The notes under the pieces are model-generated. The model was not told where the DNA came from and did not search any database. It was given only the letters and a program-made list of their open reading frames with translations. From contig CALUPM010000002.1 in the NCBI GenBank assembly GCA_944322665.1, positions 1-64,000 of the forward strand: a stretch of DNA of 64,000 nt, written 5' to 3'. Source of the stretch: Candidatus Gastranaerophilales bacterium (GTDB lineage: Bacteria > Cyanobacteriota > Vampirovibrionia > Gastranaerophilales > Gastranaerophilaceae). The position numbers and the translations under genes are program-made. This document shows, one piece after another, positions 2,888-63,676 of the stretch (the first letter of the stretch is position 1; each line of letters begins with the position of its first letter).

Positions 2888-3595
2888 TTACCACCTGATT
2901 TTTTTCGGGTAATCTTTCGGAACTTTCCAGCCGTTTAAATATATAATTGCCGTGCAAAAGTTTGGTAATTGTCCTTCGCAGGAATAGATACTTCCTCTGT
3001 ATAATTTCTTTTTATCTCCATTCCAGGTATATAAATAAGGTTCAACTCCTTTCTGATATAAATACTTGCAGTCTTCTGAATCTACAATCGGGTAAAATTG
3101 AAACGCAAAAGCGCAAACCCCGAAACTTTCAGCCTTTGTCAATTCCATACATTTTTCGGCGCGGCTAGGATAGAAAATTATTTCTCTGTTTTCGTGAGCC
3201 TGAAACGCAAATGCGCTGCCATCACTAAGTTCATACAAGAACCGTTTTTGTCCGTCACCGTCTACAATTTCTTTCACTGTTATAATATTTAAAAATTCTT
3301 TAAAATATATGTTGAAAGTAGCATTTGTTTGCTCGCTTTTATTTACAAAATTTCCGTCCTCGTCACGGTCTTCTTCTATCCAGTAGGACCAGCCTTCAAA
3401 GTCTCCGTGTTTATTTTTTGCAAGCAGAACTGCCTGATTCATAATACTGTAAAATTTTTTCATTCTGGTTTCTACAATGTATATCCTGTATTTTTGTACA
3501 AGAGCAGGGAGTGTCATAGCTATTACAACGCCTAGAATTCCCAGAGTAATAAGAACCTCTGCCATTGTAAATCCGTTTTTTATAAATGATTTCAT
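2888..3595 (-). CDS. Prepilin-like (type IV pilin/pseudopilin) protein
   Basis: A 235-residue protein with a class III (prepilin peptidase) signal: a short basic leader MKSFIKNG, then FTMAEVLITLGILGVVIAMT with glutamate at +5 and cleavage expected between G8 and F9. The hydrophobic helix is followed by PALVQKYRIYIVETRMKKFYSIMNQA, a type of linker often seen in prepilins of this kind. The C-terminal globular part has five or more cysteines. It would be a minor pilin or pseudopilin at the cell envelope. No assembly ATPase, platform protein or peptidase gene is nearby, so the machinery must lie elsewhere. A promoter is seen at 3632-3660. Confidence 0.85.
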   Translation of the reverse strand: MKSFIKNGFTMAEVLITLGILGVVIAMTLPALVQKYRIYIVETRMKKFYSIMNQAVLLAKNKHGDFEGWSYWIEEDRDEDGNFVNKSEQTNATFNIYFKEFLNIITVKEIVDGDGQKRFLYELSDGSAFAFQAHENREIIFYPSRAEKCMELTKAESFGVCAFAFQFYPIVDSEDCKYLYQKGVEPYLYTWNGDKKKLYRGSIYSCEGQLPNFCTAIIYLNGWKVPKDYPKKIRW

Positions 3596-37864: not shown

Positions 37865-38060
37865 TTATATAGCAAATTCCGCAGATATTATAAAAGCCCG
37901 TCATTCTGAGGGCTTTAGCCCGAATAATCTCCTTACGTTTTCAGGGGCTCCTTCGCCTTCGCACCCGCGATAAACGGGTATGTCTAACGCCATTCACCCT
38001 CTGCTCGTGCGGCTCAGGATGACGCTGTTTTAAAATTGTCAGCGGAAATTGCTATATAAA
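37865..38060. repeat. Terminal-inverted-repeat element, copy A
   Basis: Ends TTATATAGCAAATTCCGC (37865-37882) and GCGGAAATTGCTATATAA (38042-38059) are complementary at 17 of 18 positions. The middle contains a GTCATTCTGAGG-type palindrome and GGCTCAGGATGACG. It does not encode a protein. Three further copies lie at 42.2, 44.1 and 44.7 kb. Confidence 0.75.
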
Positions 38061-47797: not shown

Positions 47798-48859
47798 ATG
47801 CGTCAAGACGATTCACCCGAAAGAATCAGGCTTGGGAGTTTAACTGCGATACGTGAAAAGAATTTTGGCGGATTTTCGATAGCGGAAATGCTTGTCGTAA
47901 TGCTTATAATGTCACTTATTGTAATAGGAATTCCTGCAATCCACTTTAAGAAAACAGAGTTAAAAACGAAGCGCAGTCTTCACGGGCGGTTCGAGTGCTA
48001 TTATGCGGGCGAAACTCTGCAGGCATATTATACAAATGAAGAAGGAGCAGATAATACACCTGCAGTAACCGGTAGTGAGTGCACGTTTACACCGCCGAAA
48101 AATGCAACATATCTGTTAGTTCATGCAGTCGGCGGCGGCGGCGGCGGTGCTCCCGGCGGCAGTATAAATATTATAAACAAGGTTGATGGCCCTAATACTT
48201 ACACAACAGCAAACGATTTTCCCGAATGGATGAAAGATGTTCAAGGATCCGGACATTTGCCTGAGTCTGAAGTTAGACCTCCGAGTTATACCGGCAAACG
48301 TCAGGGTAGTTATGCTACGATAACGTACGGCAACGCCGGCAAAGCAGGGGAAACCAAGTCAATGTTTTTCCCGAAATTAACTAATACGAAGATAATAATG
48401 AAGCCCGGTAAAGGCGGTTTAGCAGGTCATCCCGGTTTTGACACTGTAGTAGAGTTTGAGAATGCACAAACTTCAACGTTGACTGCAAAAGGAGGTGCAG
48501 CCGGATCCGGAACAGGGCAGTATCCGGTATGGCTGGACGGTGACACCCCGATGTGTACAATACTTGAACTTGAAGGTCGAAAAGGAAATCCTTCGGATTT
48601 TACAGAAAGTATCGAGATGGATGAAGATACTAAAATGATATCAAAGGTTCAAGCCAGTGCAGGCAGCGGAGGCGAAGGCTCTTACGGAAATGCGACCGGA
48701 ACCTATACGGTTAGATATACAATAAAAGGCGGGCCGTCAGCTGAAGAGGTAGATGTAAGCGATTATGTATCGAAGCCGTCCTGTGATGTATCATCTTGCG
48801 GAACGGGCAATTGTACTGCAGGAAACGGTCAAGACGGAGCGGTGGTAATATTATGGTAA
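47798..48859 (+). CDS. Prepilin-like protein with a glycine-rich domain, 1
   Basis: A 353-residue protein. A 25-residue polar leader precedes the prepilin site GG|FSIAEMLVVMLIMSLIVIG (cleavage after G25, glutamate at +5). The exported part has the family signature HGRFECYY, then CTFTPPKNATYLLVHAVGGG with six glycines, many later glycines, and the C-terminal box GQDGAVVILW. Cysteines at the end (CDVSSCGTGNCTAG) could form disulfides. It resembles glycine-rich surface domains attached to a minor pilin. Its stop overlaps the start of the next gene. The function is unknown; I infer surface adhesion or a tip protein. Confidence 0.8.
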   Translation: MRQDDSPERIRLGSLTAIREKNFGGFSIAEMLVVMLIMSLIVIGIPAIHFKKTELKTKRSLHGRFECYYAGETLQAYYTNEEGADNTPAVTGSECTFTPPKNATYLLVHAVGGGGGGAPGGSINIINKVDGPNTYTTANDFPEWMKDVQGSGHLPESEVRPPSYTGKRQGSYATITYGNAGKAGETKSMFFPKLTNTKIIMKPGKGGLAGHPGFDTVVEFENAQTSTLTAKGGAAGSGTGQYPVWLDGDTPMCTILELEGRKGNPSDFTESIEMDEDTKMISKVQASAGSGGEGSYGNATGTYTVRYTIKGGPSAEEVDVSDYVSKPSCDVSSCGTGNCTAGNGQDGAVVILW

Positions 48860-49731
48860 AAAATAATCAAAAGTCCGGATTTTCATTATTTGAAGCATGT
48901 GTTGTAATGCTTATTGTCGGAATATTTGTGGCGTTATGTGCAAATGCTTACTCAAAAAAGCACGTGACCTATCAGGAGTCAGACGGACACGGGCGGTATG
49001 AATGCTACAGGAATTCAGCAGGAACATTAATGCAGCATTACGTAGAGAACAATAACAGGAGAAGCGTAACCGGAAACTCCTGCGTATTCAGACCTCCGCG
49101 TTATGCAAAATACCTGTTTTTGAATGCAGTCGGCGGAGGTTCAAGCACGGCGCCGGGCGAGTTCAAAACGGTATTTTACAGTTCACTGGACAAACCTTTG
49201 ACAGTCGAACCCGGAGGCGTCAACGGGTCGACATCCATAAAATTGGACGGAACCGTAATTTTATCAGCGGCAGCGGGACAGGGCTCTTTAAACGCAACGA
49301 GTTCTGAAGCGACAGAAGTACGGAGCTGTACTTTTGATTATAAAAATACAGACTGCGACGGAACGCCGACATGCCAGCAAAAGGGTTCTGATTTGAAGAT
49401 ATCATTTTGTAATGAATCAGGATATGTGACAAACATTCTTTCATTGGAGTATATAAAGCAGTATAAAAGTTCATATTCCGGAAACACGCTTATATATAAA
49501 GATTTGTCGGATTTTACGAGTCACGGAATCACTCCTGAGTCTGCACTTACTCAGGTAGGAAATACCGGAACTTATAATTCATTTTATACAATAAGAGTAA
49601 CATTTAACACGGATCCTTTAGAGAAATCAGAGATGGTGCGGTATCTGGAGCAAATGGGCATAGAAGGCGGAATTGTCAGCGCGAATCCGGGAGGAAAGGG
49701 CAAGCCCGGAGGGGTTGTAATCATGTGGTAG
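48853..49731 (+). CDS. Prepilin-like protein with a glycine-rich domain, 2
   Basis: A 292-residue protein starting at ATG 48853, whose codon overlaps the stop of the preceding gene by 7 nt; GGTGGTAAT is a possible ribosome site. Prepilin site KSG|FSLFEACVVMLIVGIFVAL (cleavage after G9). Family signature HGRYECYR, CVFRPPRYAKYLFLNAVGGG, and a C-terminal GKPGGVVIMW. The glycine run is weaker than in its neighbours. It is probably made in a fixed ratio with the first protein. Function unknown. Confidence 0.8.
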   Translation: MVKNNQKSGFSLFEACVVMLIVGIFVALCANAYSKKHVTYQESDGHGRYECYRNSAGTLMQHYVENNNRRSVTGNSCVFRPPRYAKYLFLNAVGGGSSTAPGEFKTVFYSSLDKPLTVEPGGVNGSTSIKLDGTVILSAAAGQGSLNATSSEATEVRSCTFDYKNTDCDGTPTCQQKGSDLKISFCNESGYVTNILSLEYIKQYKSSYSGNTLIYKDLSDFTSHGITPESALTQVGNTGTYNSFYTIRVTFNTDPLEKSEMVRYLEQMGIEGGIVSANPGGKGKPGGVVIMW

Positions 49732-49739
49732 TCTGCAGT

Positions 49740-49768
49740 TTGCCAATCCGCACGGCGGATGATATAAT
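49740..49768 (+). promoter_or_regulatory. Promoter with a palindromic spacer, upstream of the large prepilin gene
   Basis: TTGCCA (49740-49745) and a perfect TATAAT (49763-49768) are 17 nt apart. The spacer holds a perfect inverted repeat, ATCCGC ACG GCGGAT (49746-49760), well placed as an operator. Confidence 0.55.
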
Positions 49769-50040
49769 AAAAAGAGGATAAAAAATCAAAATTCACTCTT
49801 AATAAGAGAGGAAAAATAAGGGGTAAACCCTGAACAAACAAGATATCCTGAGCACCGGCGAGGGATAAAACAATAAAGTGTTGTTATTGCGGGCCATCAG
49901 GCGAAGCAATCCAGCCAATTGACAATAAAACACAAGTCCTCCAGAGGCTTCATCAGAAGGAGCACAGAAAAAATCATGTCCTTCTGAGCAAGGCGAAGGA
50001 TTTCCCAAAAACAGGACGTCATCCTGAGCCGGAGGCGAAG

Positions 50041-50220
50041 GATCTCCCTAAAAATCAAAAGAGATTCTTCGGACATACGTCCTCAGAATGACATGCAAAC
50101 AGGAGCGTCATCCTGAGGCTTTAGCTGAAGGATCCCCCTGAAAATCAAAAGAGATTCTTCGGACATACGTCCTCAGAATGACATGCAAACAGGAGCGTCA
50201 TCCTGAGGCTTTAGCTGAAG
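50041..50220. repeat. 90-bp tandem repeat of GTCAT-type palindromes
   Basis: Two units of 90 bp (50041-50130 and 50131-50220) are almost identical and a partial third follows to about 50270. Each unit contains one ATTCTTCGGAC...CTCAGAATGAC palindrome and one CGTCATCCTGAGG...GAAGGATC palindrome. The repeat is not CRISPR-like, since there are no unique spacers. Confidence 0.85.
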
Positions 50221-50322
50221 GATCTCCCTAAAAATCCAGGGGGATTCTCCGGACATACGCATTCAGAAAGACAGAACAACAACAAACGGGTAAGACGAAC
50301 AATAAAATAAGGTGAACAGAGT

Positions 50323-53289
50323 ATGAATAAGAAAACAAAGACATATCGCGGCTTTTCAATGGTTGAAATGATGTTACTGCTGATAATAGTATCATTGATG
50401 CTGGCATCTGGAGTAACGGTTATTTCAAAGAAACACGTAAAAGTTCCGAAATTATCATCACACGGCGCGTATATATGTTATGAAAAGAACGACGTGCTTC
50501 ATCAGGAAAAGTACCTTGGCATCGGGCTTGATAACAAGATTATGGATGAAGACACGGATCAGTGTGTATTTGAACCGCCTGCAAGAGCGGCATATCTGCA
50601 TATACAGGCAACCGGCGGCGGCGGCGGCGGCGGGGCATCCGGATACAAGGGCGGAACTCTGTTCACATACGAATCCAAGACGGAAGTAATATCACCTTTC
50701 GGCTGGACTCAAGACAGGCTGGATTTAAAAGGTATGGATATTGACGAACTTAAAGATTTAGGCGGCAAAGTCTGGGCTTATGCAGACGGAACCGGCGAGT
50801 TTGGTGACGGCGGCGGAGGCGGCGACGCCTATTATATCAAACAGGATTGCGCTAACGGTGCATGTATTGTTTGGCGTTCATGGGAGTACACAGGAAATAA
50901 AGAACGTAAATGTGACTGCGGCGAACAAGTTCGTAAATACTCTAAGGTTCAAAAGTACAAATATGAGTATTACAAGAGTCATTCTTTGTCGGACACTACA
51001 GCTTGTGAAAATTATCGTTATTATGACAATTTCTATTGTAGGAGATATTATATTGATTACAGCTACAATATATCAGGAAGTTCATGTATAGGTCATGAGA
51101 TTGACTATGATTGGGGATATTATAGTGCTAGTGAACATATCGATTATAAGTCATATTGTTCAGAAAGGGACGATGAGGGTAATTGTATTGAGTACTACGG
51201 TTATGTAAAACGACAGGGCGATTGTAATGAATGGAGAAAATACTATAGTGATTGCACCAGTTGTACCTATGATACAAGACATACCGCTTACTGTACAGAT
51301 GAGTGGGATATTCCTACAAGTGCTTCCTGCAGTGAAACCGGTCTACAAAATCTGACTGTAGATGTAACAATAACTGAAGCTAAAGAAACAGAAAAAGATT
51401 CACACTACAGACTTGAAACAAGAGGTGCAGACCTGCACGACGGCGATGATGTCAAAGAACGGACAATGCTGAGAGATACCGGTGAGGCGAAAACAGTCTG
51501 CAACTACGGTAACTCTACTATATATCCGGGTACAGGTATTTTCGGCTCCTTTATGGAAGGTGAAGTTTCAGGAGTCAGCTGTGACACCTCTTCTCTGGCT
51601 GCGGCTTTCGGTGAACAGATTTATAAAATTGGGGAGGCTCAAACTTCAGTTCATTCTACAAAAACTGTCAAAGCCAGTGAGGTCTATGATGTCACGGCAG
51701 GCGGGACAGAAGAAGAATTCCCGATGTATATGCGGACAGAAGATGAGGGGGGCCTCAGCGTTTTCGGTGAGTCTTGTGTTAATACATATAACGGAGACTG
51801 CGAATCAAATGAATTTAAAGCACCTTCAGGCGGCTACAAGCCACCAAAAGGAGGTAATATTGTAAATAAGGAACCTCTTTACACAGCGTGCAGCTATTCT
51901 CCGCGTTACTGGAATGATGACGACAGCAACATGGGCTGTGATAGGGTTTATAATGCTATAAATAACAGATTTACAAAATACGGAAGCCAGACTAGTAATA
52001 CGTATTGGGTTTATGAAAGATGCGATTGTGTACAAAACAACTCATCAGATCCCGGTGAATGTGTCTATGACTACGGCGATGTAGACAATGCACCCAGTAC
52101 AGAGCTCGGTACAAAGTGTTCATATATACCTGATGTAGTCAAGGGCGGCGCAGGCGGTGTCGGCAAATTCTGTGCGCTTAATGATGTTCCTGTAACTTTA
52201 GGGCTTAACTACAAAGGGGAATCAAGTATCTTCGCCGGTATCAGAGGAAGCGACAGACTTCTGACAAACGCTGACTACAAACCTTTATATACTGAAAAAG
52301 AATGGAAGAATCAGGAGGCAACTGCTTCTGATAAGGGTGTTGGCGGTGAACACGGTACTCCTTCTCAGGGATCTGCGTCAATCAGGATTAGCGGAGGAGA
52401 AGATGGAGAATACTGGTGCGATCTCCATAAAGATAAAGTTCCGGGCAGAGGTGAAGGCGCTAGACGTTACGGTATGGATCGTACATCTGCTCCTGTTGCC
52501 GGAAGTTCAGCGCCTGTAACGGGTGCCCCTTCCAACGAAGCAGCTATCGGTAGTATCGACGGTCAGGGTTATACCGAAAACAAAGGCAGAAAATGCGGCG
52601 GCAATCACGTCGGCTATTGTCTGAGACCTAAGAACAAACCGGTCATAGCAAACGGTAAATATACTTATTCATATACATGGAACACCAACTACCTCCAGTA
52701 TGGTGAAGGCGGTGAAGCCGGTGAATACAGAGTTAAAATCATAAGAGCCATCAAAGATAAACCTATCGAAATCACCCTTGGCCGCGGCGGTGCTGCAGGT
52801 TCAGATCCGTCCGAAACTGATGAACGCTCGGTATGTGACGGCGGCGACGGCGGAGATACTATTGTCGGTGATATCCTGACAGCAGAAGGCGGCAAAGGCG
52901 GTAAAGGCTGTATCCCGACAGTTACGGAACAGCTCCCGTACTGGTATGAAGGCGGAGTTTTCGATGCTAAGCAGCCTGGTACACCGGGTAAACTTGCCAG
53001 TGTTACCAACTACAAAACAAATATTATCAACCTTGTTCTGCCGATAGATAACTCTGTTCTCGGAGCTTGGATTGAGGCTTCCGGTGCAGGCGGAAACGGC
53101 GGCGGATCTATCAATAGATGCTGGGCAAGTGAATGGCAGCGCTGGTTTAATGGTGAGCGGCTTTACAAAGCCACAGAAGGCTATCTTGATGCCGCTCAGC
53201 TTGAACGAGATGGCTGCAGAAAAGGCAAATACTGGGGTACTGAGCCGGCTCAATCCGGCACCGCAGGCGCTGTTCTCATCAAATGGTAA
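50323..53289 (+). CDS. Large prepilin-like protein with glycine-rich and Tyr/Cys-rich regions
   Basis: A 988-residue protein with the prepilin site RG|FSMVEMMLLLIIVSLMLA (cleavage after G10, glutamate at +5). The exported part has HGAYICYE, CVFEPPARAAYLHIQATGGG (C81 to the glycine run at 98-104) and the C-terminal box GTAGAVLIKW, as in the two proteins upstream. Between about 178 and 345 lies an unusual tyrosine- and cysteine-rich insertion (for example CENYRYYDNFYCRRYYIDYS). Later parts carry GGDGGDTIVGD-type glycine repeats. It is very large for a pilin and may be an adhesin displayed through the pilus system. Function unknown. Confidence 0.82.
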   Translation: MNKKTKTYRGFSMVEMMLLLIIVSLMLASGVTVISKKHVKVPKLSSHGAYICYEKNDVLHQEKYLGIGLDNKIMDEDTDQCVFEPPARAAYLHIQATGGGGGGGASGYKGGTLFTYESKTEVISPFGWTQDRLDLKGMDIDELKDLGGKVWAYADGTGEFGDGGGGGDAYYIKQDCANGACIVWRSWEYTGNKERKCDCGEQVRKYSKVQKYKYEYYKSHSLSDTTACENYRYYDNFYCRRYYIDYSYNISGSSCIGHEIDYDWGYYSASEHIDYKSYCSERDDEGNCIEYYGYVKRQGDCNEWRKYYSDCTSCTYDTRHTAYCTDEWDIPTSASCSETGLQNLTVDVTITEAKETEKDSHYRLETRGADLHDGDDVKERTMLRDTGEAKTVCNYGNSTIYPGTGIFGSFMEGEVSGVSCDTSSLAAAFGEQIYKIGEAQTSVHSTKTVKASEVYDVTAGGTEEEFPMYMRTEDEGGLSVFGESCVNTYNGDCESNEFKAPSGGYKPPKGGNIVNKEPLYTACSYSPRYWNDDDSNMGCDRVYNAINNRFTKYGSQTSNTYWVYERCDCVQNNSSDPGECVYDYGDVDNAPSTELGTKCSYIPDVVKGGAGGVGKFCALNDVPVTLGLNYKGESSIFAGIRGSDRLLTNADYKPLYTEKEWKNQEATASDKGVGGEHGTPSQGSASIRISGGEDGEYWCDLHKDKVPGRGEGARRYGMDRTSAPVAGSSAPVTGAPSNEAAIGSIDGQGYTENKGRKCGGNHVGYCLRPKNKPVIANGKYTYSYTWNTNYLQYGEGGEAGEYRVKIIRAIKDKPIEITLGRGGAAGSDPSETDERSVCDGGDGGDTIVGDILTAEGGKGGKGCIPTVTEQLPYWYEGGVFDAKQPGTPGKLASVTNYKTNIINLVLPIDNSVLGAWIEASGAGGNGGGSINRCWASEWQRWFNGERLYKATEGYLDAAQLERDGCRKGKYWGTEPAQSGTAGAVLIKW

Positions 53290-53610: not shown

Positions 53611-53906
53611 CATGTCATCCTGAGTCTTTAGCCGAAGGATCCTCTGAAAATTCAGGGGGATTCTTCGGGCTCCGCCCTCAGAATGACATGAAAAAAAGTA
53701 CGTCATCCTGAGCCGAAGGCGAAGGATCTCCCTGAAAATCCAAGGGGATTCTTCGGACTGACGTCCTCAGAATGACGTGGGAAAATATCATGTCATCCTG
53801 AGTCTTTAGCCGAAGGATCCTCTGAAAATTCAGGGGGATTCTTCGGGCTCCGCCCTCAGAATGACATGAAAAAAAGTACGTCATCCTGAGCCGAAGGCGA
53901 AGGATC
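53611..53906. repeat. GTCAT-type palindromes with a 118-bp direct repeat
   Basis: The stretch 53611-53728 recurs at 53789-53906 (period 178 bp). Each unit joins a GTCATCCTGAG...GAAGGATCC palindrome to an ATTCTTCGGGC...GCCCTCAGAAT palindrome. ORFs found here arise from the repeats. Confidence 0.8.
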
Positions 53907-63067: not shown

Positions 63068-63676
63068 TTAACGTAATTCTCTTGTGATATTTGTATCTTT
63101 CAGGTATTGTTTTTCAAGAGTTCCATTGACATAAATTCCGCCGTCAGCTTCGACAAATATTTCAAACATGTCCGGCTTAATGCAGCTTGTTGAATTGTAT
63201 TTGCAGTTTGGTTCTTTATCACCGTTTGTGTCAACAGTAATCTTTGCGTCACCGGCAAAGTTTGAAGAAGGCAGGAAAAATGCTACATTGTCTGCCGTCG
63301 TAAAACTCGGGGTTCCAAAAGTTCCGCCGCCGCCCGGAGTGCCGGGGCAGTTGATTGCAGCATTGTCAACTACGTTCACTTTCATAGCAAAGAGTTCACA
63401 GAATTTTTCGTTGTCTTTGTATTTTTTGCCGTTTAGTTCAACTTCATTTGTGTTATCCAGTCCGACTGCATCATCCGTTTCAGAGTAAAGATAATCGTCA
63501 TTAACAAGCTCTGTTACAATTCTTTCGACTGTAGTATAAGCCTTTTTAAACATTAATTTTTGTCTGTCCGGCTGGATATTTTTAAGAGTAGGAATAAGCA
63601 TTGCCGCAATAACACCGACAATAAGTAATGTTACAAGTACCTCGCCTAAGGTGAAAGCTTTTAGTTTATTGTTCAT
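63068..63676 (-). CDS. Prepilin-like protein with alanine at the cleavage site
   Basis: A 202-residue protein with the leader MNNKLKA, then FTLGEVLVTLLIVGVIAAML: glutamate at +5, but alanine instead of glycine at -1. The exported part has a disulfide-capable set of cysteines (CELF, NCPGTPGGGG, CKYNSTSC) and ends IFVEADGGIYVNGTLEKQYL. An extended -10 (TGGTATAAT, 63714-63706) lies upstream. It is divergent to another prepilin gene at 63870. A pseudopilin role is likely; the assembly machine is not here. Confidence 0.83.
   Translation of the reverse strand: MNNKLKAFTLGEVLVTLLIVGVIAAMLIPTLKNIQPDRQKLMFKKAYTTVERIVTELVNDDYLYSETDDAVGLDNTNEVELNGKKYKDNEKFCELFAMKVNVVDNAAINCPGTPGGGGTFGTPSFTTADNVAFFLPSSNFAGDAKITVDTNGDKEPNCKYNSTSCIKPDMFEIFVEADGGIYVNGTLEKQYLKDTNITRELR

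Follow-up and report, generated by a model that had tools for sequence, protein, structure and literature searches.

Glycine-rich modular prepilins with phage tail-fibre-type domains form a conserved triad in Gastranaerophilaceae

Three adjacent prepilin genes and their shared module

Members of the Gastranaerophilales, a non-photosynthetic group related to cyanobacteria, inhabit animal guts and are uncultured. We analyzed the first 64,000 nucleotides (the window) of contig CALUPM010000002.1 from a member of this order (assembly GCA_944322665.1), focusing on three neighbouring open reading frames (ORFs), denoted genes 1, 2 and 3, which encode proteins of 353, 292 and 988 residues. A preceding sequence-only reading had described them as prepilins sharing a series of ordered motifs, glycine-rich stretches and a terminal box, had proposed surface display through a pilus or type II-like machine, and knew of no characterised system with this combination. 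The three ORFs and their prepilin signals were indeed present, with Glu at position +5 in each. The features of the locus are as follows.

47798..48859, forward strand: gene 1, modular prepilin of 353 residues in triad position 1; ORF of the position-1 clade with 12 orthologues
47981..48856, forward strand: gene 1 module of Gly_rich_2 or phage fibre type, residues 62-353 (Cys67, Cys95, terminal strand 348-352), from Pfam, AlphaFold2 and Foldseek
48853..49731, forward strand: gene 2, modular prepilin of 292 residues in triad position 2; ORF of the position-2 clade with 32 homologues
49732..50322, no strand: spacer of 591 bp between genes 2 and 3, with GTCATCCTGAG repeats; the spacer of a close relative is 127 bp
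50323..53289, forward strand: gene 3, modular prepilin of 988 residues in triad position 3; ORF of the position-3 clade with a match to the PHROG 863 tail fibre
50869..51477, forward strand: hypervariable segment 1 of gene 3, about residues 183-385, Tyr- and Cys-rich, within the Gly-rich scaffold; marked by a drop in identity and a low predicted local distance difference test score (pLDDT)
51760..52122, forward strand: hypervariable segment 2 of gene 3, about residues 480-600; conservation 0.28-0.42 among genus orthologues, nucleotide identity 0.39-0.49 between orthologues L033 and L034
52660..53286, forward strand: C-terminal Gly-rich scaffold of gene 3, residues 780-988, ending in GAVLIKW; conserved among the 15 orthologues of the genus, mostly with a pLDDT of 80-93, profile match E 1e-6

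Each of the three proteins starts with a class III signal, in which a short polar leader ending in Gly is followed by Phe-Ser-x-x-Glu, with Phe at +1 and Glu at +5, and then by a hydrophobic helix. Cleavage of gene 1 is predicted before F26, which places Glu+5 at E30, and M1, F26 and E30 are invariant among its 12 orthologues. The Pfam profile N_methyl matched genes 1, 2 and 3 with E values of 8e-4, 9e-3 and 0.14, respectively, and other family members passed its cut-off (for example, with a score of 25.3). In the AlphaFold2 model of gene 1, which was based on 37 sequences and had a mean pLDDT of 85.9 and a predicted template modelling score of 0.74, a predicted membrane helix at residues 28-52 is connected by a flexible hinge to a well-predicted β/Gly-rich domain that reaches the C-terminus, with strands 63-80 and 94-97 running into the Gly-rich part. 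Prepilin-like ORFs are also found elsewhere in the window, at 2888-3595 and 63068-63676 on the reverse strand. Such ORFs are unusually numerous in some Gastranaerophilaceae (100 matches in genome G118 and 45 in G019 at E<=1e-3), are mostly 220-300 residues long and are conserved only in the N-terminal helix.

When gene 1 was used as a query against its own genome, genes 2 (E 6e-17) and 3 (E 2e-14) were the sole matches. The consensus of 70 homologues reads, after the prepilin helix, KK, HG.Y.CY, C.F.PP..A.Y, GGGGGG, PG.GG..G..G..T, A.GG.GG and G..GAV.I.W. Its two cysteines are kept in 46/46 and 44/46 aligned homologues, the HG, PP and GGGGGG motifs are likewise conserved, and the terminal Gly and Trp (G347 and W353) are invariant in all 70. 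As judged from the sequences, the common ordered motifs reflect homology and not chance, in agreement with the earlier description. The glycine-rich stretches ascribed to all three proteins were evident in genes 1 and 3, whereas the module of gene 2 is far poorer in glycine.

The Pfam family Gly_rich_2 (PF21722) matched 29 of the 70 homologues, with a best E value of 5.6e-19 (69.5 bits, the cut-off being 24.3). For several of these, the match extends to profile position 225/226 at the protein C-terminus. Considering that the match reaches the end of the profile there, the terminal VxIxW box corresponds to the last strand of the domain and the C.F.PP...GGGGGG segment to its first; the box is real but does not form a motif of its own. 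A search for Gly_rich_2 in the window's own genome gave no match because the members in the window are too divergent. In profile-profile comparison, the C-terminal parts of genes 1 and 3 were related to the Pfam-positive members with E values of 4e-6 and 1e-6, respectively, while column-shuffled controls gave 0.19 at best. PHROG 863, a tail fibre family, matched 16 of the 70 homologues as well as gene 3 itself (E 2.2e-9, residues 788-863). In a Foldseek comparison of the gene 1 model with the PDB, entry 7ypx, the fibre of cyanophage Pam3 (E 5.5e-4), and entry 9d93, the tail tip of Bxb1, came first, with a probability of 1.0. Foldseek also gave 87 viral proteins at E<=1e-3, which were mostly annotated as 'glycine-rich domain-containing' or 'minor tail protein'. 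A PDB search with the gene 1 sequence alone gave no match, and the best non-pilin PDB match by sequence profile was Bxb1 gp33, which was weak (E 0.03). Taken together, the Gly-rich part belongs to, or closely resembles, Gly_rich_2 and the Gly-rich domain known from phage tail fibres.

Conservation of the triad and alternation with S74 prepilins

Among named records, the family was present at 42 loci. Where an organism is named, it belongs to Gastranaerophilales, Melainabacteria or cyanobacteria; all other loci are labelled 'uncultured bacterium'. Complete triads were found at 22 of the 42 loci with constant order and orientation, and their proteins measure 359-732, 291-394 and 549-1032 residues. 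In a tree of the N-terminal 125 residues, each triad position formed one clade, with Shimodaira-Hasegawa-like approximate likelihood ratio supports of 91, 90 and 97, and the position labels required 2 changes, which is the minimum, against 32.9 in shuffles. To judge from this tree, genes 1-3 are ancient paralogues inherited together, as would be expected for partners that are not interchangeable. When 386 genomes of the phylum were searched with profiles, strong full-length matches were confined to the window's own family, Gastranaerophilaceae, apart from one genome of a sister family (G072) with a pair of Gly-rich genes on a 3.4 kb contig, so that the restriction of the family to one lineage, behind a prepilin signal, was borne out. 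Weak matches in photosynthetic cyanobacteria (E about 1e-6, ORFs of 150-280 residues) were not counted, since the two inspected (L182 and L183) were ordinary pilin-like proteins. One genome, G329, carries head-to-head duplicated Gly-rich prepilins with near-identical N-termini (L197, 2387-6478 and 7110-11272), each copy being followed by two ordinary prepilin-like genes.

In 10 of 10 cases tested by Pfam, family genomes that lack the triad encode large prepilins bearing Peptidase_S74, which serves phage tail spikes as an intramolecular chaperone. A prepilin start was present in 39/39 complete S74 ORFs inspected (37/40 by a strict pattern and two more by eye, one being truncated at a contig end), and S74 prepilins often occur three per locus. 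In a first sample of the family, Gly-rich genes were found in 29 genomes, S74 in 25 and both in none. For a second sample the exclusion was predicted beforehand, and S74 was found in 0/47 genomes with strong Gly-rich matches versus 30/33 genomes with weak matches. In the pooled family genomes, S74 occurred in 0/76 with and 55/63 without the Gly-rich genes (Fisher p 1.7e-30, a value that ignores relatedness). Peptidase_S74 was not found in the window's genome, and the only genome with both modules was G072, outside the family. Since three genera (g7, g8 and g24) contain both module types, each in different species, the exclusion is not the result of a single split. The likeliest reading is that the Gly-rich and S74 modules do the same job. 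In the case of two genomes of one genus, G256 (Gly-rich) and G250 (S74), a common upstream gene is 91.6% identical, and the genes that separate it from the pilins differ; this is only suggestive of replacement at the same locus, and it could not be demonstrated that the Gly-rich and S74 triads are positional orthologues. In G250, a gene that appeared PilT-like by eye is found one gene away from an S74 prepilin (L200:8375-12797), and in G070 a fourth large prepilin of 494 residues directly follows three S74 prepilins (L175:8121-9602).

Pilus machinery, hypervariable segments and the proposed role of the triad

The genome encodes one PilC/GspF-like protein and one secretin, adjoining a PilB-like ATPase, as well as two PilT-family retraction ATPases above the cut-off. 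Based on this single PilB/PilC/secretin set and the two PilT proteins, the triad is likely to be exported by the genome's type IV pilus machine. Type IV pili have been inferred earlier for this group (PMC5877343). The PilB-like ATPase (L148:13755-15767) carries an MshE-type domain that binds cyclic diguanosine monophosphate (c-di-GMP), with 48.7 bits against a cut-off of 38, and pilus assembly may be under c-di-GMP control.

Among 15 genus orthologues of gene 3, the scaffold is conserved except for two segments, and glycine residues are much better conserved than other residues (0.73 versus 0.50). The nucleotide identity falls sharply from about 0.85 to about 0.40 over two stretches that are separated by a conserved one. 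In orthologue pairs, residues 195-330 are 13-49% identical, compared with 68-96% in the flanks; for the pair L033 and L034, the identity is 96% in the flanks and 23% in this region, which has 38 gap positions. The variable insert contains 25 Tyr and 11 Cys among its 136 residues. In the AlphaFold model of gene 3, the pLDDT of hypervariable segment 1 is about 25, and the model is confident for the scaffold only and not for residues 183-597 (mean pLDDT 57.5). A constant Gly-rich scaffold that carries variable loops is also the arrangement described for phage gp38 adhesins (PMC12892980).

We consider it reasonably probable that the triad is a pilus-tip adhesin, in which modular minor pilins carry a phage-type receptor-binding head. 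According to this proposal, the N-terminal helix would anchor each of the three minor pilins in a type IV pilus, the Gly-rich module of phage tail-fibre type would replace the ordinary pilin head in each, and the three non-interchangeable proteins would most likely assemble jointly at the pilus tip. Export would proceed through the single PilB/PilC/secretin machine of the genome, and PilT would drive retraction. Variable loops, chiefly the two hypervariable inserts of gene 3, would be displayed on the conserved Gly-rich scaffold and would bind a gut surface, such as another microbe, a host glycan or a particle. Processing by prepilin peptidase, location at the tip, heteromeric assembly, and adhesion together with its target are what we infer. 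As for the surface display suggested by the sequence-only reading, it is supported by the prepilin link and by a complete type IV pilus motor set elsewhere in the genome, and an adhesive function is probable. With less confidence, and only as a possibility, we suggest that the pilus tip across the Gastranaerophilaceae might be a three-subunit phage-type head that exists in a Gly-rich or an S74 version but never both, is swapped between close relatives, and is retargeted in its binding by the two gene 3 cassettes.

Several results weigh against the adhesin proposal. The N_methyl scores of genes 1, 2 and 3 (19.3, 16.1 and 12.3) are all below the curated cut-off of 21.2. Gly_rich_2 reached 21.3 bits in gene 1 (residues 93-122), under its cut-off of 24.3, and did not match genes 2 and 3; gene 2 can hardly be called Gly-rich and is only weakly connected to Gly_rich_2 (profile-profile E 1e-3 over 14 columns). 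The Foldseek template modelling scores are low, at approximately 0.2-0.5, and the fold similarity to phage proteins is thus local and of a lattice type. No relatives of the family were found in phages or viral contigs by tblastn and two viral-contig scans, the first two of these searches being weak tests because BLAST masks low-complexity sequence. A viral homologue, as would be expected for a recently phage-derived gene, was likewise not detected by tblastn. The proposal draws on sequence comparisons and models, and none of the homologues is characterised.

Among the alternatives, a purely structural role, where the modules would cap or stiffen the pilus or serve cell-cell cohesion or biofilm without recognising a specific receptor, is unlikely, if the most probable of them. 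It agrees with the conserved scaffold and paired cysteines and with the compact, hydrogen-bonded nature of Gly-rich lattices (PMC9608196), whereas inserts as hypervariable and sharply bounded as those of gene 3 are more typically a feature of recognition surfaces. Slightly less probable is that the triad represents minor pseudopilins of a type II secretion system (T2SS)-like apparatus, which would export or cap secreted substrates and not display adhesins. Minor pseudopilins of T2SS are typically tandem, GspF and GspD are the best-scoring families for the platform protein and the secretin, and the secretin is adjoined by a GspC-like fragment; however, all three are below their equivalog cut-offs, the ATPase scores best to PilB and bears the c-di-GMP domain, and two PilT retraction ATPases above the cut-off are encoded. 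Hypervariable phage-type modules are not known from T2SS minor pseudopilins. We give a similarly low likelihood to the exposed module being mainly a variable decoy or antigenic coat under phage or host immune pressure. While such a coat would fit hypervariability limited to two segments of one subunit and the reciprocal absence of two module types, the conservation of the module across genera and its phage receptor-binding fold favour binding, and direct evidence of predation is absent. Finally, diversification of the gene 3 inserts by a diversity-generating retroelement, as a variable, Tyr-rich stretch in what is putatively a receptor-binding protein might suggest, is very improbable, since neither a second copy nor a template of the segment is present in the genome, only chance matches of 17-31 bp, and the segment lengths vary.

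Surroundings, known systems and significance

The ATG of gene 2 lies inside the 3' end of gene 1 with an overlap of 7 nt, and the spacer between genes 2 and 3 is long because GTCATCCTGAG repeats occupy it. Dispersed repeats led by GTCATCCTGAG occur in 10 exact copies in the 64 kb versus 0.01 expected, clustering on either side of gene 3 (50018-50207 and 53614-53890) and recurring at 38013, 57002 and 61131. The neighbours of the triad are unrelated housekeeping genes; those upstream encode a YqeG phosphatase and a U32 protein resembling TrhP, and glutamate dehydrogenase is encoded downstream.

Modular pilins are a described class, exemplified by Streptococcus sanguinis PilB with a vWA module and PilC with a lectin module (PMC8179133). 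The triad shares with them the N-terminal pilin segment and a large C-terminal domain that is not specific to pili and is likely adhesive and tip-exposed. It differs in that the modules named in the cited text do not include Gly_rich_2, that three paralogues form a fixed set, and that the gene 1 model seems to lack a separate globular pilin head. PMC8179133 also lists a pilin-S74 architecture (IPR012902-IPR030392) and reads it as a peptidase, while Pfam describes the domain as an endosialidase chaperone. Like the triad, these proteins fuse a prepilin to a module of phage tail-fibre type and often occur three per locus in Gastranaerophilales, but the module is another one and, within the family, never accompanies the Gly-rich triad in one genome.

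In the phage fibre proteins Pam3 gp24 and T-even gp38, a rigid scaffold is built from Gly-rich motifs, and its distal, variable loops have been implicated in binding the receptor (PMC9608196, PMC12892980). The triad resembles them in its Gly-rich scaffold with variable loops, Pam3 gp24 being the top PDB match, whereas it has a cellular pilin anchor, paired cysteines and a far larger insert in gene 3, and a direct viral homologue was not found. Minor pilin tip complexes (GspI-J-K, PilV-W-X and the CofB trimer) are comparable as small co-encoded sets that likely sit at the filament tip (PMC8179133). Sequence similarity to them was found only in the N-terminal helix, and the triad differs in that all three members have Glu+5 and phage-type modules.

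The view that the Gly-rich part is an unfamiliar domain is not supported, as Gly_rich_2 (PF21722) is of phage tail-fibre type; modular pilins, too, are already described (PMC8179133). The match to a known phage tail-fibre family, which the sequence-only reading had itself set as one of the outcomes against it, was found in Gly_rich_2, PHROG 863 and the Foldseek matches to Pam3 and Bxb1. In our literature search, Gly-rich modular pilins or prepilin modules of Gastranaerophilales were not found described. What is new is the conserved Gly-rich modular pilin triad, its mutual exclusion with S74 modular pilins, and the hypervariable inserts, the domain and modular pilins as such being already known.

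If the adhesin proposal is true, two attachment machineries would be linked by a pilus tip in which phage receptor-binding architecture is put to new use. The gene 3 insert and the choice between Gly-rich and S74 modules are predicted to track host or habitat and to set the specificity of binding. Two unrelated modules that occur reciprocally amount to a natural experiment in modular replacement, and their alternation suggests that the pilus of these gut bacteria may be an interchangeable and fast-varying attachment tool.

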